In this document: positions 32,885 through 55,410 of the stretch, in pieces | How the letters are laid out: every line of letters begins with the position of its first letter | Numbering within the stretch: the first letter of the stretch is position 1 | Assembly: GCA_021234155.1 (NCBI GenBank) | Contig: JAJEKV010000129.1 | Span: 1,095,963 to 1,159,962 of the forward strand | Source: Isoetes taiwanensis | Taxonomy: Eukaryota; Streptophyta; Lycopodiopsida; Isoetales; Isoetaceae | DNA length: 64,000 bases | Direction: 5' to 3' | Made by a program: the position numbers and the translations under genes | Notes under the pieces: model-generated | The model's input: only the letters and a program-made list of their open reading frames with translations | The model's database searches: none | Told to the model about the DNA's origin: nothing

Positions 32885-34050
32885 CAGACCCTCAGGTCCA
32901 TAGGCGGCTTTTACAAAAATGTGCATTTATATTAGGCCATTTGCCTCAAGTTCATCAGGTAAATCATTTAATTCTAATATCTCTTTATAGAGATTCCACC
33001 AACCATATAAATAATTCCCAAGAACCGTAGTATCTAGTGTCTGCTCATGCAAAGAGGAGAACATCATGCACTCCAATAGCACGTGTTGCTCATCTTCCAC
33101 ACTAGCTCGTCTACAACAGGAGCAGAAGGGAAGTTCTCGGGGAACCCCATGAAAGCGACGGACCTCGCTTTCAAGTTTATGACTGCTTAACCTTATAATT
33201 GAGATATCATGTTTCTTCTTTTGCCCTGCAGGCTAGTATTCAAGTATTCTTGCTCCACATAGATCAGCATGGAATAATGCACTTCTATAGAATTCCATGG
33301 TGTTCCCCATGTCTTTTGAGTGACGCTATCAGTTACTAAGCATCTGATCCCTGCATTTGTTTCAGGTAGGTCATGCAGGCTAATTCCCCAACGCTCTGCT
33401 CACTCATGTAACTATTGGAGCCATCCTATGTATCTTGTTGCATTGATTCTCTTAGTGCCTGGTGTGGAATTCTTCCCTCTAGGTTCTGGATTCTGACCAA
33501 GTATGAGAGGGCTTGATAGAGGGCTTCAGCTTCAAGTGGGAGAAAACCTACTTCTGCCATAAGCATTGGATATGGAGTTTGGGCTTTTACTCCTAACTCA
33601 TTTAAAAGGAAGCGCTTTTGAACATTTTCAACCTTTGTCCACATCTTCTTAGAGAGTCCAGGTCCCCAAACTTGACATCCATATATTGTGATAGGCTGCA
33701 CTAGTGTTCTATACATAAGTTTCCTCAAATTCCATTTACAGACATGATTATTCTTCCATAGGCTCAGCACACTGTATAGAGCCCACATGCCTCCACAATT
33801 CTCTGCTCCACTCTTGCATTCCATTTGTAGCCATCTGTTACTTCAATTCCCAGATATTTATATGCATGTGTTCGTTCTAGTACTTCCCCGGCATATATCA
33901 GGTCTACTTTTTCCCTTCTTCCAATAATCATCACTTTGGTTTTCCGTCTATTCAACCGCATCCCTGTTGCTTCGCAAAATGACTCAAGAACATTCAATTG
34001 TTGTTGCAATCCTAGTGATATTCTAGATAGGAGAACAACATTGTCAGCAT
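32885..34050 (-). mobile_element. LINE ORF2 remnant: RT palm to C-terminal knuckle
   Basis: Minus-strand frames read KYADNVVLLSRISLGLQQQL, CEATGMRLNRRKTKVMIIG, YKYLGIEV (33764-34050), then YGCQVWGPGL, VENVQKRFLLNELGVKAQTP (33426-33740), then SVEDEQHVLLECMMFSSL near 33065-33120. This is the order RT palm, thumb, zinc-knuckle of a LINE of the kind seen at 27009 (VEDExHxLLEC). The catalytic FADD block reads YADN, so the second Asp is lost. It is cut upstream by the next LINE at 34051. Confidence 0.8.
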
Positions 34051-35450
34051 ATTTATTTTTTTGAGGGTAAGATATATGTGTATTAATATTAAAATTAGAA
34101 AATATGTACAATAGAACCCCTCTATAAGGGAGATACAGATGATGTGGGAGTCCAAGTACAGGTACTACAGAGGGCATCTACTCGTCTTCCCCACTAAGAG
34201 GGTACTATAAGGAAGATCTTCTTTCTTCACCAAAGAGTGGGTACTATAGAGAGAGCCAGCTCCATTCCAGTACAAGATCCACCAATTAACTTAAATACTA
34301 TCTGTTACTCATTATCAACCCAATGGCACCTGAAGTATGAATAGAACCCCATCAAGGTCCCTATTTTATCAAGTCCTTTGTTGTATTTCGTGCCTTTCTT
34401 CTTATGGTGAGATAGAGCCATCAAAGCGACCTCCATATTAAACGAGTTTTTTAGCTTTTCTATAGAGATCCCCTGACCACCTAAAGCCACATCACAATGA
34501 TGCTTCCAGATAACCCAAAGTGTCAGGTTCACCAGAGAGGCATCAATGCAGCAACGATCCGTATTGATGAGCAGCTCTGGCCAGACCAATTGGCTTAACA
34601 TGATACCAATAATAGGGCAGACCCACTGCCAGAATTCAACAATCCGGGGACAGAAAAAGAGGTGAGATATGGATTCAGTTACCTGACAGCCCAATGGACA
34701 TCTGTCGTCAACTGTAATGCCCTTAATAATTAACCGTTCCATAGTACTTAATCCCCCTTGAAGAGCTAACCATCTGAAGAACTGAATCTTCCTAGAGCAG
34801 ATAGATTTTCAGGAGTTAGACAGTAAGGTTTTGGTGTCTGCCATACTAACCCCAAGCCTCACCTCAGCTAACAGGGGGGTATCCTGGCACAGATCCCTAT
34901 ATATCCTCTTCACACTATACTGATTTTGCCCATCATATCCCCTGACCCCACAACACCCGTCAGATTAATGGTATTCCATAGGATTTCCTTTAAGACTTTA
35001 CGGTCACCTTCCCTTGAGTTCGGGATTACCCTCTTGAATGCAGTCCAATTAACCCATCTGCCATTTGACGAAGATACGAGGGTGTGAGAGTGCCAAGGAA
35101 AGCCCGTCTCTCTCCCAGATCCCAGTGTTCCAAAATAGACTAAATCCACCCGCATCCCTGGGGGGATCTATTGGAGAGAAGAGATGCTGCACTTTTAACC
35201 ATGCATGAAGAATTTTACGCATAACAGAAGATGTTCCAGGGGCCACCTTGAAGTTGTAGAATAGAGCACCCAGCTCATCCCTAGGGAGAGATGGCTTACC
35301 AAGGAGCTTGCCTTGCTTCAACCAATAAGAAACAAATCTCAAGGCGGGGGATGACTCACCTTGTAGTGCACGCCAGACAAATTTGGCTGCCAGAGCCTGA
35401 GCTTGTAAGAAGGGATCCTTACAGCCCAAACCACCATCTTTTACCCATCT
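34051..35450 (-). mobile_element. LINE 3' part inserted into the neighbouring LINE
   Basis: Minus-strand frames: DGGLGCKDPFLQAQALAAKFVWRALQ (35350-35440), then GGFSLFWNTG, WERDGLSLALSHP (35060-35160), then RLIIKGITVDDRCPLGCQVTESISHLFFCPRIVEFW (34620-34740), the CPxCxxxxESxxHLFFxC knuckle, and LTLWVIWKHH near 34490. It ends in a short A-rich tail (T-run at 34051-34058) exactly at the cut edge of the preceding LINE, so it inserted into it. Several stops are present. Confidence 0.78.
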
Positions 35451-35679: not shown

Positions 35680-35730
35680 ACCGTGAAGCACAGTTTCATT
35701 ATTTATGGACTTTCCACAAGTCCATAAATA
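35680..35730 (+). repeat. Left terminal inverted repeat of element 1 with hairpin
   Basis: The terminal segment is followed at once by an ATTTATGGACTT..AAGTCCATAAAT palindrome (35701-35729), an arrangement that could be a transposase-binding hairpin. The right end has the same TGTGGAC phrase twice (near 46985-47012) but not the same palindrome. Confidence 0.55.
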
Positions 35731-36033
35731 TCTCAAATTATCGCCAGTGGTAAGAATATAGGGTTCTTTCTTCAAAATAGTGACATGATTTTGTGCTCGG
35801 CTTAAAAAAGAACTCGGTTTCCGTGCGGGTAGTTGACATGGCAGGCCGTGGAATCCAATGCGAATTTTTAGATTTCGTCATTTCTTGTTATTAAAATGAG
35901 CCACAATTTCGGGAATCGTGCAAGTAGGTGAGATAGGAGGTCCCTTCATCCAGTCTCTTCATTGTCTCTTCATTCTATCTCTTCGTGCAAGCACCTTCAT
36001 TCGCTCTCTTAGATTCATTTCAGGTCACTCAGA

Positions 36034-36318
36034 ATGGTCGACACAAGGCGCAGACAGGGACACACCATCGCCGAAATGCAGTCTCATATTAGTGAGGCAA
36101 TCTTAGCCCATGCGAATCAGTTGCAGCTGGAGGTACAAAACGAGATGAGCCAGATCCGAACGAGAGAAGTTAGCGCCCAACTCACGAAGCTCCTCAAAGG
36201 GGATGGGTTGATAAAGGATGGCGACGAGGAAGAACTCAGTAGGGTGGAGCTGGAGGACTGCCTCATATCTTTGAAAAGCATTTGTATTCTGAGGCAAAGG
36301 CACCGAAAAGGCTGCTGA
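36034..36318 (+). CDS. Short unidentified ORF near the left end of element 1
   Basis: An open frame of 94 codons begins MVDTRRRQGHTIAEMQSHIS and is predicted helical (QLQLEVQNEMSQIRTREVSAQ). N-termini of some Ty3-type Gag proteins look similar (short basic start and a coiled coil), but no further gag blocks follow. Helical text continues out of frame to about 36400. It may be the start of a small element-encoded protein or a gag scrap. I do not assign a function. Confidence 0.3.
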   Translation: MVDTRRRQGHTIAEMQSHISEAILAHANQLQLEVQNEMSQIRTREVSAQLTKLLKGDGLIKDGDEEELSRVELEDCLISLKSICILRQRHRKGC

Positions 36319-36776
36319 AAATGGAGGACGTTTGGATTCACAACACGTTCGACCTGTTTAAAAGCTTTACAAGAAGCAAAGAAGACAATGCGAAGGTTTG
36401 GTAACCAAGCTCATCGTCGTCGGCGATGGTCACACTCTCAAAGACTTGGATGATCATTTGGATCTGTCAGTGAAGTCATATTGATGAGTTCGATCCGGGG
36501 ATCTTATTGAGGTTGAACCCGGGCATTATTTGAAGCTTTTGTCTTTTATATTATATGTTGTCTATTATCTAGTATGTTTGTGTTGAATTAGCCATACTGT
36601 AAGACCTATGTATTTTCTTTATCTAAAAGAATACCAAACTGTTGGTTAATCAATATTGGAAACACTGGAAAGTAATACCAAAAATATTACACATGTCTTT
36701 ATATTCTTGGATCATGTACATAAGTTATTTCACTTTTTGATTCTAAAAACATATACATTGAGTTACAGAGGGTGCG

Positions 36777-36798
36777 AAATTGGGCGCCCGCCCAATTT
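36777..36798. promoter_or_regulatory. Isolated 22-bp near-palindrome, element 1
   Basis: Arms AAATTGGGC and GCCCAATTT flank a GCCC spacer. The match extends outward as GGTGC / GCACC. It lies just beyond the 3' end of the minus-strand gene and is the leftmost member of the family found in the intron and intergenic arrays. Confidence 0.75.
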
Positions 36799-37710
36799 GC
36801 ACCTCGCTAACTTGCAAAACAGATCGTATGACAACATGAAATGCTTAAGGGTCCACCCTTGGTGACATATCGGTGTGACCAACTTCACTTTGTTCTCCCC
36901 CCCCCGTGCCGCTTGCTTGGGGAGCTCCATCCGGGCCAGGAATTCTTGAGGAGGTTAGTGTAAGCGTCAACACCCTCATTCTCAACCTCATCGTCCATTT
37001 GAACCTCATCCCCTTCTCAACTTCCTCGTCCTCAACGTTAGCCTCTTTCATAACCTGAGGCTCCTTTTCAACGTCAACCCCAACCTCCATTGCTTGCTCT
37101 GATGGTAGTGGGTCCACAGGTTGAGCATCTTGTGTCTCCAATACAACAGAAGGTTCTTGGTCCTTCAGGAGCAGCTCCGTAAACTTCGAGCTACCCTCGA
37201 CCAGATCTTGGGTGCACACTCTTTGCTGGCAGCCTGCCAAAGCATTAATGTTGTCCTTCTTCTTTCTAAAGAAAGACATGTCCTTTGCTCCAAAAACGCA
37301 ACCTTTCTCAAATGGTCTGTGAGAGAACCCTTAGACATCCGAAGAGTGGATTGCAACTCTTGCACCGTTTGTGCAGGGAATGGACAAGGAGGTGGAGGAG
37401 GGGTCGCCACTGTACTTGCCTTGGAGCCGCTTGCTTTCTTTTTTCCCTCTGCTATCTTTTGCAATGCACGGGCTCTCGATTTCTTCTCGTCCAGCATAAC
37501 TTCAAGTTGATCAAATATCTGAACAAGTTTAAGCTGTATATTCTCATCAATCTCAAATGCAGCGGATTTATATCCTTCGCACATGGCTGCACGGCTAAAG
37601 GATCCTCCGGAGAAGAAGTCAAGGACACTGCAACCCTCAAGCATAAATTTCCGCACTAGGTATGTGCATGTCCTGGAATCTAATTGATGTGGCAAAAGAG
37701 CACCCCCGCC

Positions 37711-37957
37711 TCCTGGGTAAAAGAATGCTAGGGTGTCCTACATTTGGCCAAATGTAGAGTAAGAGATGTATCACATTTCAAATACATAACCACCGCCTCC
37801 CATAATTTCGAATGGGTGACGTGGCTAATCCCAATAATTCCATATCCCAACCAACTTTAATTAAAAAAGAAAACAATAATAGGTGCCTACATTATCCTAC
37901 ATTATACGTAATGTAAGGGCATTTTTTTTAGACACCCTAGCATTCTTTTACCCTCCT
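37711..37957. mobile_element. MITE (239 bp) in the last intron, duplicating the splice acceptor
   Basis: The ends 37715-37737 and 37931-37953 are perfect 23-bp inverted repeats beginning GGGTAAAAGAATGCTAGGGT. TCCT flanks both sides (37711-37714 and 37954-37957), a short target duplication. On the gene's strand TCCT is AGGA, which spans the 3' splice site AG|GA, so the insertion recreated an acceptor next to exon 3. There is no coding sequence inside. Confidence 0.88.
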
Positions 37958-39263
37958 GCCACACTCTTGTCACCCAAGGCCGATACAACCAGTATGCTGA
38001 ATGATAGTAGACAACCGTTATAAGTGATATTGAAAAGAAATGGACAGAGACACAAGTTTAAATCCTGTTACCTGCTGCGCACTCATGATCGGGGAGGTTC
38101 TTCTCTATGTCCTCCGCTTCTTTCAAGTGCTGCGGAAACTTCGAATACTCTTGAGGATGGTCCGCGTCGTTGAAGCATATATTCAGGTCATTCATAGCAG
38201 GGGCAGCTGCTTGGTCTCTGGCCACATACATTACCAGAACAAGGGTCTACAGCTCGCGAACACGAGAGGAAGGGTTTCTCTTTTTAGGATCCTGGTACAC
38301 TCCCACCCATACACGACTACCTCCGTCTATAGTTTTCATGGCAGACAAGCATTCACTCAAACGATCTGGACTGATAAAGATCGTGATCCAATATAGTTGC
38401 TGATCCGTTAGCACACTGATCTGGTCCAAGAACTTCTGGTAATCCTCCATGCTCCATTTCTTGATATTTCTGAAATCACATCCGATAAACCGAGCAGAGG
38501 TATTGACCACATCAACTGACATCCCCAGAGGACTGACACGGTAGCATTTGAATGATTTAGATCCATCTTCCACCGGTCCGCGCAGATACTCATCAACCTT
38601 CAGGATAAGAGCCTTTGGAAGGTTGAGCTTTTCTGCCTCCTTGCGGCTATCAACCCAATCACCTACACTGTTAGCGAACATTAACATCAAATTTTCCGTG
38701 AATATGGGATGAATTTTCCTCAAATCTGCCATGTTGTCAACTTTGAGCTTCTTTACATCTTTCAGATATTTAAGGAGTGCACGCTCGACAGTGCCAATCT
38801 TCTTCAGTTCTCCCGCACGGATTTTCATGACACGCCTACCTGTGTAATTTTTAGTGGTCTTGATGTACGTGGTGCCTGTCATGATCTCCGTCAACAGTCT
38901 TTGCAAATCCATTGGATGCATGGACTTTAAAGATCGGCACTTGTTATTCGTGAACATTCTCAGCCGGTCCTTAACCACTATCGTCTCACCCAATTCATCT
39001 TTTAGTTGGTCTTCATAGAACAACTGAGCCACTTGTAGGCACATATTCCAAGTTTGGTCATCCAAGTACACGAAGAAATCGTAATCTCGCATGCTAAGTT
39101 TCTTCAATGTACGCAAATCGGCTATAGCGAGCCAATCCCAATTTAATGGCCAAGGAGATGACATAGTAAACTTAGCATATTTGAAATATATGATCTCAAA
39201 ATCGAGAAATGCACAAGCTACCATGCAATGCACATGGGGGCCAATGCACATGGGAGGGCTACC

Positions 39264-39938
39264 AAATTGGGCGCCCGCCCAATTTGATGGCCAAGGAGAT
39301 GCGATTTTACATGCTTAATGCACATGGAGGTAACCCAAATTGGGCGCCCGCCCAATTTGATGGCCAAGGGGGTGCAATTTAACATGCATAATACACATGG
39401 GGACATCCAAAATTGGCGCCGCCCAATTTCATAGCGTGAGGCTACATGAAACATGTGTGATAAAGACATGGGAGGGCTCCCAAATTGGGCGCCCGCCCAA
39501 TTTGATGGCCAAGGGGGTGCAATTCAACATGCATAATACACATGGGGGACATCCGAAATTGGGCGCCCGCCCAATTTCATAGCCAGGAGGCTACATGAAA
39601 CACAGTGACAGCACATGGGAGGGCTCCCAAATTGGGCGCCCGCCCAATTTGATGGCCAGGGTGGTACAATTTAACATGCATAATACACATGGAGGCATCC
39701 GAAATTGGGCGCCCGCCCAATTTCATAACCAGGAGGCTACATGAAACATGGTGACTGCACATGGGAGGGGTCCCAAATTGGGCGCCCGCCCAATTTGATG
39801 GCCAAGGGGATGCGATTTAACATGCTTAATGCACATGGAGGCCTCCCAAATTGGGCGCCCGCCCAATTTGATGGCCAAGGGGGTGCAATTTAACATAATA
39901 CACATGAGGGCGTCCCAAATTGGGCGCCCACCGAATTT
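39264..39938. repeat. Tandem array of the near-palindrome in the intron of element 1
   Basis: Ten copies lie about every 60-75 bp (starts 39264, 39337, 39409, 39482, 39556, 39629, 39702, 39775, 39848, 39917), set in ~145-bp double units that alternate ...TTTGATGGCCAAGG... and ...TTTCATAGCCAGG... contexts. Arms AAATTGGGC / GCCCAATTT are strictly kept while flanks vary. Copies three and ten are damaged. The array sits between the GTAAGT donor (39979) and the next exon of the H3-mimic gene. Confidence 0.92.
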
Positions 39939-41581
39939 GATGAGAAAAAAATACTACATGACAATTAGAATTGACTTACTGAATATGCGCTATCTTGGGA
40001 TAGTCCACGCTTTCCCTTCTTCGGCTTTCCATAGATTGCCCATTGATTCCTTAGCTGCTGTATTTGCTCGAAGTAAACATCCTGATGGATGGTATTCTTG
40101 GTGATATCGTTGCTTTCCTGGCTAACCTTCACATATTCAGTAGGAGTGAGGTTCCCGGCCAGCACGCGACATTTTCTTTTAGCGTAGAAGAAAAAAATAA
40201 GATCTTTCGGATGAGCCCTTTCTCACGGCCATTCCAAGGCCGATTAACAAGAATTTGGGCAAGCTGCAGGTGGTGTGATTGCCATTTACAATCCGACCTC
40301 GCATTGTCCAAATCGCCGGCCTTCTTCCACGATTGCACGCCGAAGGTGCGGATCAAAGGGTACAACATCCGCACAAGGTGGATGCATCTGGACATTAATA
40401 AAGGATTCATAGAGTGTATCTACATGTTCAGGACTGATGACCCTGCAGGTCATATTTGCAGGTGCTTGATGCATTTTAAATATATCCACCTCTATTTCGA
40501 ATTCAATTCCAAGAGGATAGATCCTTTCCCTGTGCCTAATGTTGATCAATGCACTTTGTGACAGCGAACGTCTGCTTTCCTGGGTCCCAGCCCCGCCAGA
40601 TGTCGAGCACTTAACAATTTGCCTGTCATCTTCCTCTGAGCCTGTCCCAGTCGAACTCCCCCCATCGGATCCACCTGATGTGGATGGAGGAGTCGAGTCT
40701 CTTCTTTTCTTCGACGAGGAAGCTATTGCCTCATGCCGACTTCGTTTTCTTACTTGCGTTTCTGGTGGGGACTGCTCAGATACCTCCTGCGAACGAATGC
40801 TTAGGTCCGGGCTACGTGATGTAGTTCGCATACCACCAAGAATCATTTTTGGCGTTTGTGTTTCTGATCTTTTCTTTTTTGGAACATTTAATTTTTCTGA
40901 CGAGACGGCTGTTGGCTTTTCTGTGCCCTTAGGTCCTTCATTCTTCCTAGAAACTCCATAACGTGACCTCAACCACGGCGTGTCATAGACCTTAGGTTGG
41001 TTCTTCCCATGATATTCTGTGTAAAGGGCCTTTGATCGATTTTGTTTATGATCGAGTATGTACTGTCTAACTGTGTTAAATCCATCTATAATATCTCCCC
41101 GTTTGGTGAGTCCAGATCTATCAAGGCTTTCGTAAGAAGCAAGGACCCAGCCCTTGGCCTGACACGAATGTGGAGCCTCAGTGATGCTTGCATGCATTAA
41201 CTGAGGATTGTAAGTCTCAAAGGGTAACCTGTATCCTTGAAATGACTTATCAAGCACGTCTTCCACGACAACATCTAGCTCGTTGTCAACCTCAGTGCTC
41301 ACAGTCATGTCAATTGCGATACCAGCATTCTGTATCCTCCGAGTCCCGGGCTCAGCAAAGTACAAGCACAGATCCTTGAGATGATTTGTGCTTGAGCCAG
41401 GGTGGATTGTGCCTACCTCTATGCACCATGAAAACTTGTCCGCTACAGCTGTCATTAGCTCTGGGACGACTTCAATACCATTGAACTGAATGCTCGACTC
41501 TGTTTCCTTTGCTGCAGCAAATGCCTGTGCCAACGGAGGGCCAGCTCCAGGTACACGTGCAGTTTGTTTAGTTCTGGCCAT

Positions 41582-41690
41582 GGGTGCTGCATAACATCAT
41601 TCATTAAACCCATTAGTAGTGTATTCAAGCATTAAAACAAGATAGGGGAGAACAGAGGAGTTTTAAAAGCAAGAACATCGGCAAGAGGGT
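41582..41690 (-). promoter_or_regulatory. Leader of the H3-mimic gene
   Basis: On the minus strand TTATGCAG|CACCCATGGCC immediately precedes the start, so the ATG probably sits five bases into an exon behind a 5'-UTR intron. CACCCATGGCC is a favourable translation-start context. This supports choosing this ATG and therefore an H3-like N-terminus. Confidence 0.5.
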
Positions 41691-41945
41691 GCCAAATTGG
41701 GCGTCCGCCCGATTTGGCACCCCAGAGGAGGTTTGGATGGAGAAACCGAGGCAAGAGGAGACACCCCAGGAACAGATGCAAGAGGGTGCGAAATTGGGCG
41801 CCCGCCCGATTTGCGACCCCAGAGGAAGTTTGGATGCAGGACCAGATGCAAGGAGAGGCAAGGTGGGCGCCCCCCCAATTTGCCACCACAGATGCTTGGA
41901 GACAAGGAGAGGCAAGAGGATCACAAATTGGGCGCCTAGAGTCGG
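41691..41945. repeat. ~75-105-bp repeats carrying near-palindromes
   Basis: Four copies of the palindrome family (41694, 41791, and damaged ones near 41860 and 41924) sit in a repeat that also contains CCAGAGGARGTTTGGATG and GATGCAAGRAG. Inverted GGTGCCAAATTGGGCG / CGCCCGATTTGGCACC extends the arms in the first copy. It lies upstream of the H3-mimic start. Confidence 0.85.
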
Positions 41946-42239
41946 TTTAGAAGCATGGAAGCAGAGGGTGTGTGGATGCAGAGGGTTATTTGGTGCAGAG
42001 GACACAGCTTCTGAGGTACTAAGTCACAACCAAAATTAGAAGCATAGAATCCAAAATTGATGGATGTAGGATAGCTGAGAATTTCATTTAGGGTGGACTG
42101 CTTATGGCCAGTGGCTTATCGCCTGCAGTAATATAATAAACTAAACTTAAACATAAAAGCGTTACCTTTTCCTTCCTTCAAGGGTCATTTTTCCATGAAA
42201 CCAGTGGCGCCTGGAAGCTCAGGGACAGCGCTTACAAGA

Positions 42240-42370
42240 AACAGAACCTGGCGGAATCACTTAGAAGACGATAGGCGCAGCGTGAACCTGGCGAAATCAC
42301 TATCAAGACGAGAGCAGCTGCCTGATCCTGGCGCAATCACTTTCAAGACGATAGGCGCAGCAAGAACCTC
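42240..42370. repeat. 40-bp tandem repeat (three copies)
   Basis: Units starting near 42246, 42286 and 42326 share CCTGGCGNAATCACTNTCAAGACGA followed by TAGGCGCAGC or a variant. Confidence 0.8.
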
Positions 42371-42554
42371 AAATGAATGAGCAAGCGGTTAGGAATCGGT
42401 GGCGAGATTGAACATGTGAATGACAAGTGGCATCCATGCAAATGAAGAGTCTTAAAAATAGACCGTTTTAACTAAATATAGACCAAAAGAAATAACAATA
42501 AAAATAGACTTATGCAATAAATGTGCCCGAAACATTAAATGCCGATTTTTAAAT

Positions 42555-42735
42555 TAATATAGACGTCCGCCCGCCCGCCCCAATTTGAATTGCCCGCCCC
42601 AATTTGAATTTAAAATCACAGGCCCGCCCGCCCCAAATTGAATTTAAAACTACGGGCCCGCCCGAATTTGAATTACGTCCCGCCCGAATTTGAATTTGAA
42701 TATATATTACGGGCCCACCCGCCCAATCAAACTCT
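42555..42735. repeat. CCCGCCC / AATTTGAATT repeats
   Basis: Irregular alternation of CCCGCCCGCCCC with AATTTGAATTTAAA phrases, apparently built from half-sites of the palindrome family. It lies between the two divergent genes of element 1, just before a possible first exon of the transposase at 42829-42849 (ATG GCG TGC ... AAG|GTAAAT). Confidence 0.7.
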
Positions 42736-43180
42736 AGTGGGAGAATTGAATTTTGAATTACTCTCACGGAAGCGGAGCGGATAAGTATTTCGTTCTCCCA
42801 CATTCTTGGGCGGCTACTTGTTCAGCGGATGGCGTGCGATTCACCAAAGGTAAATTTCTTCCGGTTTATACGTTTATTATTTGCCACATTGGTATAGATG
42901 CGGATTTTAAGATGCCTGGATTGGTATAGAACATTATTGATGAGAAGATTTGAGAAATAAATAGAAGTTTGAGAGATGTATGCCCGGTCCCCCCAACATA
43001 ACTGATGTAGCCTACATTCTATTTGGGGTAGCATGGAAGCTGTCCTGGTTACAACCCAATTACACACCCGTGTAGATCACGAATGGCCAAATTTTATTCC
43101 AAATTGGGTTAGCAAATCGATTTCATACCCGTGTAGATGTGCAGGGCCAAGTAGGGTGGGTGCCTAGTTTGATTCCTGAG

Positions 43181-43920
43181 CAACTATGTATGGGCAGATA
43201 GACCCTTACATAGAAAGAGTAACTATGTATCATTATGTGGGCGGGTGCACAATTACAACTGCTAAGGACCACTAGAAGGAGCAAATTGGGCGCCCGCCCA
43301 ATTTCATCTGCTAAGAAAAGGCGCAGCGAGGCGACAAATTGGTAGTGCCCAATTTCAACTCCCGAAGTTTACTACAGCGAGGGGCAAATTGGGCACCGCC
43401 CAATTTCTACTAAAAGCAGCTTGCGCCGCAAAATTGGGCGGGTGTTCGAATTTCAACTCACTCAAGTTACTACAAATGTAAGCAAATTGGGCTGTTGTAG
43501 TGGTCTCGTGGAGTTGAATTGGGCAACTGCCCAATTTGTATCCACCGCTTGGTGAATTAGCGGCTTCAATTTGCCCCCGCTGCTATGGGATCTTCAGGAG
43601 TTGAAATTGGGCACCCAAACAATTTGCTACCTGTTGTAGTCTTTCTTAGCAGATGAAATTGGGCGGGCGCCCAATTTGCTCCTTGTAGTGGTCCTTAGCA
43701 GTTGTAATTGTGCACCCGCCCAATTTGCCATCACAGGGTGCTATACAATAATGATACATAGTTACTCTTTCTATGTAAGGGTCTATCTGCCCATACATAG
43801 TTAATCTTTCTATGGAAGGGTCTATCTGATTACAGCATGGAGGAAATTGGGCGGGTGCCCAATTTCACCTGCCAAGAACCATTACAAAGGGAGCAAATTT
43901 GGCGCCCGCCCAATTTCATC
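43181..43920. repeat. Inverted-repeat block with ~11 near-palindromes upstream of the transposase
   Basis: The left arm 43181-43315 and the right arm 43643-43802 are reverse complements; both contain TGGGCAGATAGACCCTTACA, ATAGTTACT-type text, GTGCACAATTACAACTGCTA and a full palindrome. Between and beyond them are palindrome copies near 43336, 43386, 43428, 43482, 43525, 43598, 43850 and 43894, most with altered centres but paired arms (for example TTGGGCAACTGCCCAA). It lies in the intergenic or 5'-intron space between the divergent genes. Confidence 0.88.
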
Positions 43921-43983
43921 TGCTAAGGACCATCTGCTACAAATTTGCTCTTGAACTGATTCATGTTTTCTTTGTGCGTGAGG

Positions 43984-46960
43984 TGTACCTATTCAAAAGG
44001 CTGGCCGGGCAGTTGCCAAAGGAGCCATAGGAGCCAGGGAGAGATGCCACTTTAAAGACATCCCAGATGGACTTGTGAGTGTTGGTGTTCTAGCTGTGTT
44101 TGAGGGGCATCATGTTCTCTGTTGGCCTACTCCAGATGCAAGAACCTTAGGTGAGGGGCTGGGTTCCTTCATTCTCTGGAGGGAAAGTGATGTTCACGAC
44201 TCCAATGTCGTGGACGTGCCATCGATCCAAAAAAAAGGAAAGTGGGAAGCAAACAGAGACACTATGTCACTAACTAGGTACACACTCACCGGGAGACCGA
44301 CCGCGAAATTTATCACTCTTGTCTGCTGCCATCCCCGCAGCGGAAGGATTTATATCCTTCACCGGGTCCGCGATGCAGTATGTGACCAGTTCTTGGGTAT
44401 GAAGACCGTAGGGAGGTTTATTGATGAAGGCTTTCCCCCTCCGACAGAGGTGAACTTCCGGTGTCAGGCATGTTTGACAATACCTAAAGCGGGCATGCTT
44501 TTAAGGTGGAATAATGATCTAGTTAGGGTTTGTGGGGTGAAGGTGTCGGAAATTTTAAGTGCAGCACCAGTGGAACAGCATGATACGACGTCGAGCCAGG
44601 GCAGCTCGGAGCTTGAGAAGCATCCGCAGTACGAGAAGCGTAAATACACCTTCCATTCTCGTCAGCCAAAGAGAGCATCAAAGCCTCCAAAGATAGATCG
44701 ACTAACAACCAATGAAGCCATCTTGAGGTATAGGAAGACCATGTGTTGCAAACAGAGATGTTGTGAGAAATTCAGTAGGGATCAAGCTATAAACATGCGA
44801 AAGGATTTCTTCGCCATGAAATCGAGTGACAGGACCACTTTTGTGTATGATATGTTAGGCAACAATATGAAGGGTAGAAGGGTCCATCGGCTAGTCTTGC
44901 AAGGCGTCAGTGTCTGTGAGAGAGCTTGGTACCTTGGTCTTGGGATTTCAAAGTCGGGGTATCTCAAGTGGAAGGCAGAATTCCGCTCCGGTGCTCGAAA
45001 GGCTGAGCATGGCAATTCAGGCACGATGAAAGCACTCGAGAAAACGTGAGGAAGTTGCCTGCTATGTTTACGAAGACATGCATTCTCGAAGAGGTCAACG
45101 CTGAAGTCATGACACCGATTGGGCAAGAAGGTATCTCCGGCTGGGATTTCATAGGACGTGGAGACGAGCTTCAAGGACGCCGGATATTGCTAAGAAGATT
45201 GCATTCTCCAAGTGTGACACTTGCGAGGTTATCCGCACGAAGCTGTTGAAGACCAAGGATGAGGCTGAAAGGAGAATATTGCATGATCAGAGAAGGGCAC
45301 ATAGACTAGAGCAGCAATCATGTCGCACCGATCGGGTCATGGAGATCGTTATCCCAATGTGCATCCTCGAGACTATGTATGTATCATTCATGACAAAATG
45401 GATCGAGCAAAGACTATGATTCCAAAGTTGCTATAATCCGTGAAGTCCCTTTGGAGACTAGATAAGTTAAAGACTTCATTGACAGTGCACTTACCCACCC
45501 GGCCATGGGAGAGGGTCCTATGGTAATTTTGCTTTGGATCCGTGGGGACGACTCCAACTTCCACGTAGGTTCCTTTGAATAGCATTTTGAAAAGGTTGGA
45601 GCTGCCTAATGAGTTTGCAGGAGGCCATCTATCGTTATTCGATCCATCAGTCCCAGATTGGGCAAGGGCCTTACGTGACACCACCGCGCTTAGCGCCAAG
45701 TTGTCGCTATATCCGGCAAGAGCATCCCCGTTGCCCCCCTCAACCGGAGGGACCCTCATTGAAGCGCCTCCCTCATTGATTGATGTTGCAACTAGACAAT
45801 GCATCCGGACAAAACAAAAATAGGTATGTATTCTCATATCTTTCATACCTTGTATATCTCGATGTTTCGATGAGATTGAGTTAGGTTTTATGATGCCCGC
45901 CATACACATGATGATATAGATGCTATGTTTGGTAATTTTTCATCTACCTTGAAGAAAGCCGGTGCTAACCATGCCCGAAGTTGTTGTATGAATTTCATAC
46001 GTGCAATCTCAACACGCCGATGCCATATCTTGTTGATAAGGTTCCAGATTGGAAAGGTTTCATAGAAGGGTATATCCCCGATGGGGAAGATAGATTGATT
46101 TGGTCACACCGAGCCCTCGACCTTTAGATTTGCTATGAATGGTGGCCGGGCCCGTCATGTACCATAAGGCTCGCCCCACGTTCGTGGATTGGTTACCTCC
46201 TCTTTGGAATAAGAATGTGGAAAGAAGGAGAGGATGGAAAACCCCTAATGCCATCCGAAATCCAAAGATGTTAGCACCTAAGACCTCGGTGAAAGACATT
46301 GGTCAGCTCAAACAAGATCCATAAGCATATCCTCCATTGGGTCGCATGCTCGGCGAACAAGAAGGGCACACCGAGAGGCGGCCAAATATACAAAGACAAT
46401 TTACGGCGACAATTGAATATTGGATGGGACTCTTGCAGCATTCGGGTAACATCACCCACGTGGTAGGTCCTTACGAGGACTTTTGTACAAGACTAGGCAA
46501 GATAGACTTGACATACCCTCGATGTGGTGGGCGTGGTGGAGCCAATTGCAACCATCACTCCCGCTTATGTTGGTCCATTGAAGGATAAGCCCGTGCGAAT
46601 TCAATCCATTCAAGGATTTGAAGAAGGGCATGTTTGTATTGGCGCCGGAGGATGATGTCTTGTGCCCAACATGGCTAGGGTATGCTACTGAGAGGAACCT
46701 CAAATGGATGATAAGAAAGAGAACTTCGAGACTATCGGTCACTTGGTGGGAGCTGTCCTGTTAGGGAACCGGTGTTCCCACCAACTATGTCAATTGTTGG
46801 AAGAAGAGATGGAGGCCGACAACGCTAGTGACCGCATTGAGATAGAGAGTATCGACTACGCTTGAAGTCCTTCGAATAAGAAGAAGCTACCAAACACTGT
46901 CAAGATTCCTACGCTTGTTGCAGAAGCATATGCGGCACTTGCCGGGGATGTATGTTAGTG
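43984..46960 (+). pseudogene. DDE-type transposase of element 1
   Basis: Open text runs from about 43984 (PIQKAGRAVAKGAIGARERC, HFKDIPDG) through a 324-codon frame to 45049 with MCCKQRCCEKFSRDQAINM and VCERAWYLGLGISKSGYLKW then HGNSGT. Further frames give KCDTCEVIRTKLLKTKDEAE and RRAHRLEQQSC (from 45210), HDKMDRAKTM (45393), LQLDNASGQNKNR (45786-45824), HTHDDIDAMFGNFSSTLKKAG (45901-45963) and VMYHKARPTFVDWLPPLW (46150). This order (Cys-rich N-part, CxxC with helical H...R, D-x-N-x-x-x-x-N-K core, GHTHxDIDAxF) is that of a widespread plant and animal transposase family I recall as DUF7869-like. At least five frame changes or stops make it inactive. GT donors after NKNR and elsewhere suggest introns too. 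Confidence 0.72.
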
Positions 46961-47036
46961 TTATCGAAGCGTCTGTTTTATAAAAAGTCCACAATTCAAG
47001 GTATTGTCCACATTTAATGAAACTGTGCTTCGTGGT

Positions 47037-52681: not shown

Positions 52682-55410
52682 ATGAAACCCAATTCCTCTC
52701 CCCGTTCACTTTACAAAGCCATTGATGCAGCAAGGAAGAGAGATCAGAGGCAGAGATTGTATGCAAAGAAGGTAGCAATGAAGAAGAATTCCCCTTCTAA
52801 AGATTCGCCTTCAAAGAAGAATAAGAAATTGAGACTGAGTGACCGCAGAATAAGAGAAATTTCAGGAGAAATTTTTGAAGTATTCAACCAAATTAGTACA
52901 AATGTTGATGACAATGACAAAGGCCGTATCCTTGACAGTCTTCTTTGGAGGGCAAGGGATTTACCAATTGCTTCTATAAAGAAATCTAAGCAGGTTACTA
53001 TGGCCGAGCAAATGGTGAAGAATTTGAAGGAAACAATGCAAGAACATAAGTATGAGAGGAATTATGACATGCTTCGTGCAAGGAAGTCCACCCTGACAAT
53101 GGAAGCAGCAGGTACAAATGGTGTCAAGCCATTGAATCAAACAGAAGTGGCCAGATTGCTCAGCATCCCCAGAAAAACAATTTCAAATGCTTTTCAAAGA
53201 AGGGTGCAAGCTAACAAAGGGGAAGGACCTTGGTCAATGTTCAGGAGGAGGAAGCGGATGGATAGCATGTTAGATTACAATAGAGAAGCTGTTCTCAAGT
53301 TCTGGACAGAAAATACAAGAGTTTCTCCATACAAGAAAGACGTGAGGAGGTATGTATCAGAGACAGGAATAAAGATGGAACATCCAATTCACCTTCTTGA
53401 AGTCAGCCAAGTAAGTATTCATCCTATATTGTAGGGTTCATTATATGTAGCATTTATTTGGCATTCACACGATTTCCCTGCAGTTGCAATTCTACCTCAG
53501 GTTTAGAGAGGAGAATCCTCATATCAAAATTGCATTGCAGACTTTTGAGAGGTTGAAACCGAGTTTTGTAAGGAGGATGCGTGAAAGGCATACATTTTTG
53601 CATCTACCACTTGAAATTTGAATACATCATGCGGGGATTGAAGCGTACCGAGAAAATTGGGTGGAGTTCATGACAATTGCAACCGCCATGCGTGATATTT
53701 GTGGCCCCCGCCCGTAATGTGCAAATCAAGGAGCATACAATCAAGTGCACCAGTGATTTATGGAGATAAGTGGTATGCAGCAAAGGTGATGATGAGGAGT
53801 GGTTTGATCATAACTGCTTGATGTTGGCGTGTAAAAAATGTGGGTTGGATAGAATTAGAAAATGTCCACAGGAAATGGATGGCACGGGTTCATTACTAGT
53901 TACTTGGAAGACATTTGAAAAGCAACTCGTGGACCAGACAGAGAATTGTGGGGATCCAAGAAAGGCTTTGAGGTACAAACCTGTCTTAAGATTAGTACAG
54001 AAGGAGAGAAGTCCCAAAGAGTTTCAAGAGGATGTGAAGAAGGTAATATCAGATTTTGTTCCACACAATTACATAGCACATTGGCAAGGCCAATCGGTTT
54101 TTAACAAGTGTGTGTCATCATTTCGGAAGATACAATTGTATCTCAAGTATTGACTTTGCGTAAAAATTACAGCATCAAGATCCGAATGAGCCCCTACCAA
54201 TGCAGACCGGCATACGCACCAAGTTTCTATACTTGTTCACATAACATATAGACATGACAAAAGTGCCGATATTCCTGTTCTGTGCGCATTTAAGAAGACT
54301 GGCCCAAAGAAGAAAAAAAAACGTAAGATTGGAGCAGATCAAGAATAGACTCAACAATGGTAGGAAGATCATAAAAGAGACTCACTTTTACATTTTCGAT
54401 GATAAAGTGCATGACTCATTATTTGTGGAACACGCCTACAAAAGCATGTTGCATGGCTTAAGGAACAGGAAATAGAGTATGAGAAGCATTGGGTTTGGAG
54501 TGATGGTCGCTCATCACAATTCAAGTCACAAAACTTTTTTTTTTTCTTAGGCGGTACTTCACAATTAATGACAAGGAAATAGTGTGGAACTACTTTGCCA
54601 CTGCTCATGGTAAAGGTGAACATGATGGTGCAGGTGCTGTTATCAAAAGGCTGCTAAGTAAGGAACAACTCAAACCCAATGGTGTGCAACTGAGGCATGC
54701 TAAAGATATTGTAAAATTTCGTGTACATATTTCAAAGTGATCTACCAGTTGATGAAACAGATGAGATCAAAAGATATTTTTGGGAAATTGAACCTGCTGT
54801 TGTGGCAAACATGCAAGAATATGAAATTGAAACACTTAAAGGCACAAAGAAGATTCACTGCATCAGACCTGTCAACAGGAGTAGACCAAACAAACTTGCT
54901 CATAGATGCCTGTCATGTTTCTGCTTGTTTTGCATGGATCAGAATTGGGACTCCTGCATCAATACAGGTAGATTTGGAAAGTGGGAGGTAACTGACTTAA
55001 AACCAGGAGTTGAGAAGAAAAAGAAGACTCTTGAACAAGCCAATGAATGGATCAGTAATTTGGTAGAGGTAGGTGACAATTTTGCAGTGAATGCTGAGGT
55101 AGACAATTCAGAGGGTGTGGACTTCTACATCCTCAAGTGCACAGAACCCAAATGCACACTTGAAGATTCATACAAAGATGGATGGGGGCAAAAATTTGGA
55201 GTGCATGAGGTTATCTTAAGTGGACTGTATTATCAATTCTTGGGTAATTTCAAGTACATGTTGCTCACTAAACAACCCGAAGCCTCTGTGCACAGCCATG
55301 TGGTAAGATATCCTAAAATTGATATGGACAAAATAGAAGGCACAGACATGTACAAAATTTCACAGGAGACCCATGAAAAAATTATGGCCAGTCTCCCAAT
55401 AACATTGTAA
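52682..55410 (+). pseudogene. Transposase of element 2
   Basis: Exon 1 (52682-53410) encodes a basic N-part, TEVARLLSIPRKTISNAFQR (helix-turn-helix-like), VLKFWTENTRVSPYKKDVRR and HPIHLLEVSQ. A 73-bp GT-AG intron (53411-53483) is followed by LQFYLRFREENPHIKIALQT, FERLKPSFVRRMRERHTF. Later frames give WFDHNCLMLACKKCG and VTWKTFEKQL (53770-54153), HFYIFDDKVHDSLFVEHAYK, WSDGRSSQFKSQNFFFFLRR (54496), HGKGEHDGAGAVIKR (54604-54650) and a C-terminal frame 54721-55410 with RPNKLAHRCLSCFCLFCMDQ, GDNFAVNAEVDNSEGVDFY. The FWxxxTRxSP...HPxHxLExSQ...RRMR...SDGxxSQFKS...HGKGxHDG order matches a transposon-encoded family widespread in plants and animals. The D-G and H-G-K-G blocks are probably catalytic. 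Frame changes near 53590, 54160 and 54540 make it inactive. Confidence 0.75.

Follow-up and report, generated by a model that had tools for sequence, protein, structure and literature searches.

Among the DNA transposons of algae, accessory genes whose products combine a ParB-like region with a DNA methyltransferase domain are already known. A protein of this kind, 1104 amino acids long, has been described for the Sola1-1_Ec32 transposon of the brown alga Ectocarpus, where it is encoded on the strand opposite to the transposase gene (PMC12477816), and the same paper cites cases from green and red algae (Iyer, Abhiman and Aravind 2011; Petroll et al. 2025; refs 50, 51 therein). A second point of comparison is VANC21 of the Arabidopsis VANDAL transposons, for which arrays of the 9-mer motif YAGTATTAY are reported in non-coding DNA including the VANC21 introns (PMC5735166). 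Here we describe a similar arrangement in a stretch of 64,000 nucleotides from Isoetes taiwanensis (hereafter the window), which contains an 11.3-kb DNA transposon (35686-47030) with an accessory gene, termed gene B (36845..41581, minus strand). While the kind of accessory protein is known from algae, new features of this locus are a protein start that copies residues 1-8 of histone H3, loss of catalytic motif IV while motif I is kept, and an array of 22-bp palindromes.

Likened by plan and layout, not by sequence, the element shares with Sola1-1_Ec32 an accessory gene opposite to the transposase in a large DNA transposon as well as the succession of a ParB-like region and an amino-methyltransferase domain. 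It differs from the algal element, as far as the latter is described in PMC12477816, by the exact H3 tail, the lost motif IV and the palindromic iterons. The layout of the iterons in turn resembles that of VANC/VANDAL, i.e. an element-specific motif forms dense arrays in non-coding DNA, also within the introns of the accessory gene; in contrast to the iterons, YAGTATTAY is not palindromic, and the available portion of PMC5735166 mentions neither an H3 mimic nor a methylase domain for VANC. We propose that gene B encodes a putative self-targeting, VANC-like anti-silencing factor, which joins an H3-tail mimic to a probably inactive methylase domain, and assign this reading a probability of roughly 40%. 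More tentatively, the transposon might thereby place an exact H3(1-8) tail on its own palindromes by means of a methylase fold without catalysis, mimic active chromatin of the K4 type and escape silencing.

Gene B consists of three exons on the minus strand (exon 1, 41581-39980; exon 2, 39137-38072; exon 3, 37996-36845, closing with the stop codon), whose ends were inferred from GT/AG sites and from the other copies, and its protein comprises over 1,000 amino acids. Exon 1, read from copies with open frames, encodes the ParB-like region and, ahead of it, the N-terminus. LYWITIFISPD is found in exon 2, which comprises a stretch of no assigned nature and the N-terminal half of the methylase-like region, and exon 3 contributes HQLDSRT, motif I (VLDFFSGGS) and a charged tail. 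The window copy is dead: there are frameshifts in the ParB region near 40300-40180, a TAG in exon 2 and, nested in exon 3, a miniature inverted-repeat transposable element of ~239 bp with perfect 23-bp inverted ends (GGGTAAAAGAATGCTAGGGTGTC; 37715-37953), which is missing from the fetched copies aligning on both its sides. A preliminary description, made from the letters alone, had recognized these blocks in this order as parts of one gene that starts with an H3 tail mimic and lies inside a DNA transposon. Indeed, the blocks are present at 36845..41581 on the minus strand, other copies read them as a single three-exon gene rather than as separate genes, and the ends of the surrounding transposon at 35686 and 47030 are accompanied by a 4-bp target site duplication (TSD) in five of five copies.

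Copies of gene B were sought in the genome (1.66 Gb). With the open reading frame of exon 2 from the window as query, an initial pass gave 2655 candidates, of which 120 were scored; these yielded at least 124 matches, a number that is a lower bound on copies. The divergent copy L045, which is 53-60% identical to better-kept members of other subfamilies, led to 2897 initial candidates and, from the 117 scored, to at least 121 matches. The ratio of nonsynonymous to synonymous substitution rates (dN/dS) in exon 2 was 0.118, 0.137 and 0.163 for three pairs of 348-349 codons, the comparison being limited to pairs within a subfamily as synonymous sites are saturated between subfamilies; for the N-terminal 222 codons of copy L010 compared with the dead window copy, it was 0.364. 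Because of the repeated matches in the genome and the low exon-2 values, we conclude that gene B is a real multi-copy gene that was formerly under purifying selection, and that its blocks did not arise by chance. Three copies initially taken as most divergent proved to be decayed members of subfamilies already known. Upstream of gene B, copy L028 carries a second piece of the ParB-like exon (L028:9010-9612), which is an apparent duplication.

The gene B protein begins with MARTKQTAR (41555..41581, minus strand), an N-terminal mimic of residues 1-8 of histone H3. Seventeen of the 23 loci with gene B provide an alignable start (L015, L016, L017, L019, L023 and L045 do not), and the mimic announced by the preliminary description is exact in ten of them, representing three subfamilies (L010, L011, L013, L014 and the window copy; L020, L021 and L046; L025 and L026). 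Most of the remaining starts are damaged or altered, that is by a stop at Q5 (L024), an inserted base (L028), an R2V exchange (L012), shifted frames (L018, L022) or absence of a start (L009). Among the three subfamilies, seven of the eight mimic codons differ synonymously, Thr-6 being ACT in all three, while the residues are unchanged; therefore, it is the peptide and not the DNA that was kept. Thus, H3 residues under selection occupy the N-terminus of the protein, provided that the ATG of MARTKQTAR is the true start codon, as we infer; an acceptor-like site, TGCAG, is found a few bases upstream of this ATG in several copies. At position 9, V, M, L, I or A replaces K, so that the mimic spans R2 and K4 but not K9, and the residues from position 9 on do not follow H3. 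Histone mimics are known from viruses, an example being the influenza NS1 tail, where a short stretch copying the N-terminal tail of H3 sits at the C-terminus of the protein. Unlike in NS1, the copy in gene B is N-terminal, comprises eight of eight residues and belongs to a transposon. Among the titles and abstract openings searched, largely of papers outside the subscription journals, none reports a transposon accessory protein with an H3 tail, which is no proof of novelty.

The second distinctive feature, which lay outside the scope of the preliminary description, is a 22-bp palindrome, AAATTGGGCG-NC-CGCCCAATTT, that is repeated in all 23 loci, 4 to 33 times in each and 333 times in total. 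These numbers refer to searches with the inner 20 bp allowing up to three mismatches, a limit that in part builds in the conservation of the core; in the same loci the reversed motif and each of ten letter shuffles scored 0. The 22-mer's outer A and T lie beyond the search pattern and are nevertheless 89-100% conserved per subfamily in five subfamilies, as compared to 29-78% for the further flanks. Genome-wide, the exact 20-mer occurs 997 + 1115 = 2112 times, without regard to element membership, versus 0 for the backward control. The window contains 19 iterons inside the element and none in the other 52.7 kb, and for the window we accordingly rejected the idea that they are an ordinary genomic repeat. 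Nine of them are located in intron 1 of gene B (39250..39960), a single one at 36778 and the remaining nine at 41695-41861 and 43284-43896. Over all loci, 162 sites lie upstream of gene B, 102 in its introns, 69 downstream and 0 in exons; five sites called exonic by block limits are, by sequence, in the short intron 2, and nine of the ten 'intron' sites of L028 are actually upstream of gene B beside the duplicated exon piece. With respect to orientation, 236 sites point one way and 97 the other.

Downstream of the ParB-like region, gene B follows the order of the beta-class N6/N4 methyltransferases such as M.RsrI (family PF01555), in which the motif that binds S-adenosylmethionine (AdoMet) comes after the catalytic half. 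The place of catalytic motif IV is taken by GCDFRN (38466..38483, minus strand) and AdoMet-binding motif I is represented by VLDFFSGG (37603..37626, minus strand). Active beta-class enzymes have (D/N/S)PP(Y/W/F) at motif IV. This pattern is present in 0 of 23 gene B rows and DPPY is never seen; instead, all 23 read CDFRN, CDFRY or CDLRY. Motif I, in the form DFFSGG, a variant of the DxFxGxG-like pattern, is kept as VLDFFSGG in 16 of the 23 rows with all five subfamilies represented; the others read VLDFFSEG (L017) or VFDFFSGD (L018), are partial (L019) or have decayed (L009, L012, L022, L026). A weak methyltransferase identity of the region recurs in three libraries. PF01555 is the Pfam family with most member matches (seven of ten, best E 0.0043, which is below the curated cut-off), M.RsrI is the only PDB molecule matched by the profile (E 0.29), with VLDFFSGG aligning to its VLDFFAG, and among the PHROG DNA methyltransferases phrog_3008 was matched by eight of ten members (E 0.0019) and phrog_498 by seven of ten. 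Thus, the beta-class order proposed in the preliminary description holds, whereas gene B departs from this class by the missing DPPY and by Pfam scores short of the curated cut-off. Since motif IV is lost though motif I is kept, catalysis by gene B appears doubtful. The assertion that motifs IV and I are both divergent has to be refined accordingly: motif I is a conserved variant, while motif IV has more likely lost its catalytic function, which argues against the active, element-encoded DNA modifier originally envisaged. Viral contigs contained no relative of the methylase or the ParB region (two patterns searched for each) and three matches to phage records at E 5-8 were discarded as meaningless.

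The name ParB, retained in parallel with the algal proteins, denotes a resemblance at the level of a motif. NGNHTT (40269..40286, minus strand; frameshifted around the motif in the window copy) is part of WIVNGNHTT, which is invariant in the nine rows chosen for alignment A2 and by eye resembles the (D/N)GxH motif IVDGFHR of YbdM. As a yardstick, eight phage methylases were searched and contained no ParB domain at E <= 0.001.

How these parts might act together can be outlined as follows. Removal of the first methionine would expose the H3-like tail, which could then be offered to those host readers and writers of the H3 tail that engage the R2/K4 face, K9 not being copied. The ParB/methylase-like body would bind the palindromes of the element, so that activating H3-tail factors may be gathered, or repressive ones decoyed, on the element's own copies. 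As a result, silencing would be opposed at these copies, in the way that VANC proteins counteract it at VANDAL elements. For the methylase domain, the most likely role would be that of a scaffold binding DNA or AdoMet and not that of an enzyme. The motif arrays in accessory-gene introns and intergenic DNA resemble the situation in VANDAL/VANC, and gene B as the palindrome binder is our inference.

Several observations weigh against this proposal. The mimic can drift: copy L027, whose exons 1 and 2 are both open, reads MARIKKTAR (start MARIKKTARIPG) and thus represents a natural variant, and the subfamily of L045 has no alignable start. A decayed piece of 2.15 kb, L162, has no palindrome, and gene A or the transposase of the element (see below) could be the palindrome binder instead. 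No ParB profile match was obtained in Pfam, PDB or PHROGs, and hhalign of the ParB region against YbdM relatives, a ParB-like family, was no better than shuffles; the ParB/Srx-like region of the preliminary description is thus supported weakly, by the motif and not by a profile. For the methylase region, hhalign scores with three methylase profiles from phages or bacteria were low (24.9, 23.4 and 23.6, versus 27.2, 23.1 and 19.9 for the best of 40 column shuffles and 14.7, 18.8 and 14.1 for reversed profiles), and the ParB region reached 20.9 with the first of these profiles. The preliminary description had looked to structure prediction and profile searches for both folds. The profile searches supported the methylase weakly and ParB not at all, and the AlphaFold2 model of exon 2 from a single sequence was too poor to use (predicted local distance difference test score of 38.7), with no Foldseek match at E <= 0.001. 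Amino-methyltransferases appeared in this Foldseek search at E 0.64-1.7 (6k0w, CcrM 6pbd, MTA1, METTL3-14, M.BceJIV) and were not used as proof, a translation factor ranking better (E 0.25).

Alternatively, the palindromes could be sites that the transposase, or gene A, needs for transposition, with gene B acting elsewhere, e.g. by tethering the complex to chromatin via H3-tail readers. Although we regard this as unlikely, it draws support from L164 (G000:C372:9800-13000), a piece without match to genes A-C in which one end of the element is retained along with six exact palindromes spaced 174-181 bp apart, the second end not being found within the piece. Because the inverted repeat of the element closes its array, L164 looks like a non-autonomous relative of the element, and its palindromes fit a transposition site equally well as an anti-silencing site, which also counts against our proposal. 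Against this alternative, no palindrome lies within 1.8 kb of the right end in 12 of 12 right-end loci, and the palindromes crowd the gene B introns and the region between genes B and C. Less probable still is a role of gene B as an active methyltransferase that, with an unusual catalytic motif, would place N6-methyladenine (6mA) or N4-methylcytosine (4mC) on the DNA of the element itself, in line with what has been suggested for the ParB-methylase proteins of algae. In its favour, motif I and the beta-class order persist across all five subfamilies, exon 2 was under purifying selection, and the Ectocarpus gene of the same kind is predicted to make 4mC or 6mA (PMC12477816), but this would have to be reconciled with a motif IV that deviates from that of active enzymes in every row. 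That the H3-like start is without function, be it left over from the capture of a histone H3 exon or coincidental, is quite improbable, since in spite of the drifted L027 start and the lack of H3 likeness from residue 9 onwards, all eight residues are kept in three subfamilies notwithstanding synonymous changes in seven codons, and the likeness sets in precisely at the N-terminus, as a mimic requires.

Few cases are known in which transposons counter silencing. If gene B is indeed a self-targeting anti-silencing factor, the combination of an N-terminal histone-tail mimic with a defined 22-bp palindrome array offers a system that is open to simple binding assays and to analysis of methylation data. 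It would also imply that at least some of the transposon ParB-methylase proteins may in practice be readers or scaffolds and not methylases.

The boundaries of the element were established by comparison of copies. The left boundary at 35686 is common to six fetched copies (L009, L010, L012, L013, L014, L016), and the element is bordered by terminal inverted repeats of 16 bp, AAGCACAGTTTCATTA on the left (35686..35701, plus strand) and TAATGAAACTGTGCTT on the right (47015..47030, minus strand). Including the flanking TSD CGTG it occupies 35682..47034, and the five copies checked at both ends have the TSDs CGTG, AAAA, ACAT, GACT and GTAC. With the last 332 bp of the right end as query, at least 40 matches in the genome were scored among 728 candidates. 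A 4-bp TSD is also reported for Sola2 (PMC3627910). By its 4-bp TSD and layout the element is a Sola-like, multi-gene DNA transposon; the combination of a 4-bp TSD with short terminal inverted repeats, present in all five copies, can be shared by other superfamilies. Gene B lies in the middle on the minus strand, flanked by genes A and C on the plus strand. Gene A (36034..36518) encodes ~167 amino acids where open (L026), is frameshifted in the window and recurs as a similar stretch in most fetched loci; no family was found for it, with nothing above the Pfam cut-off. Gene C (43982..46870, extent approximate), a DDE-type transposase gene, is broken by frameshifts in the window, where the pieces 43985-45046 and 45108-45416 have no Pfam match, whereas in copy L017 an open piece of the gene has a match to DUF7869 (PF25273) with E 1.6e-31. 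No paper naming DUF7869 was found in the literature searched. Stretches similar to gene C adjoin gene B also in divergent copies, e.g. L017, L018, L021 and L027. Close to the element's left end, the window contains broken pieces of a reverse transcriptase resembling that of long interspersed nuclear elements (33764-34742, minus strand; RVT_1, E 2.9e-6, and zf-RVT, E 0.0029, both below the cut-off). Finally, open frames at 52682-55410 on the plus strand, whose Pfam matches are weak only, possibly represent a second transposon-like gene.

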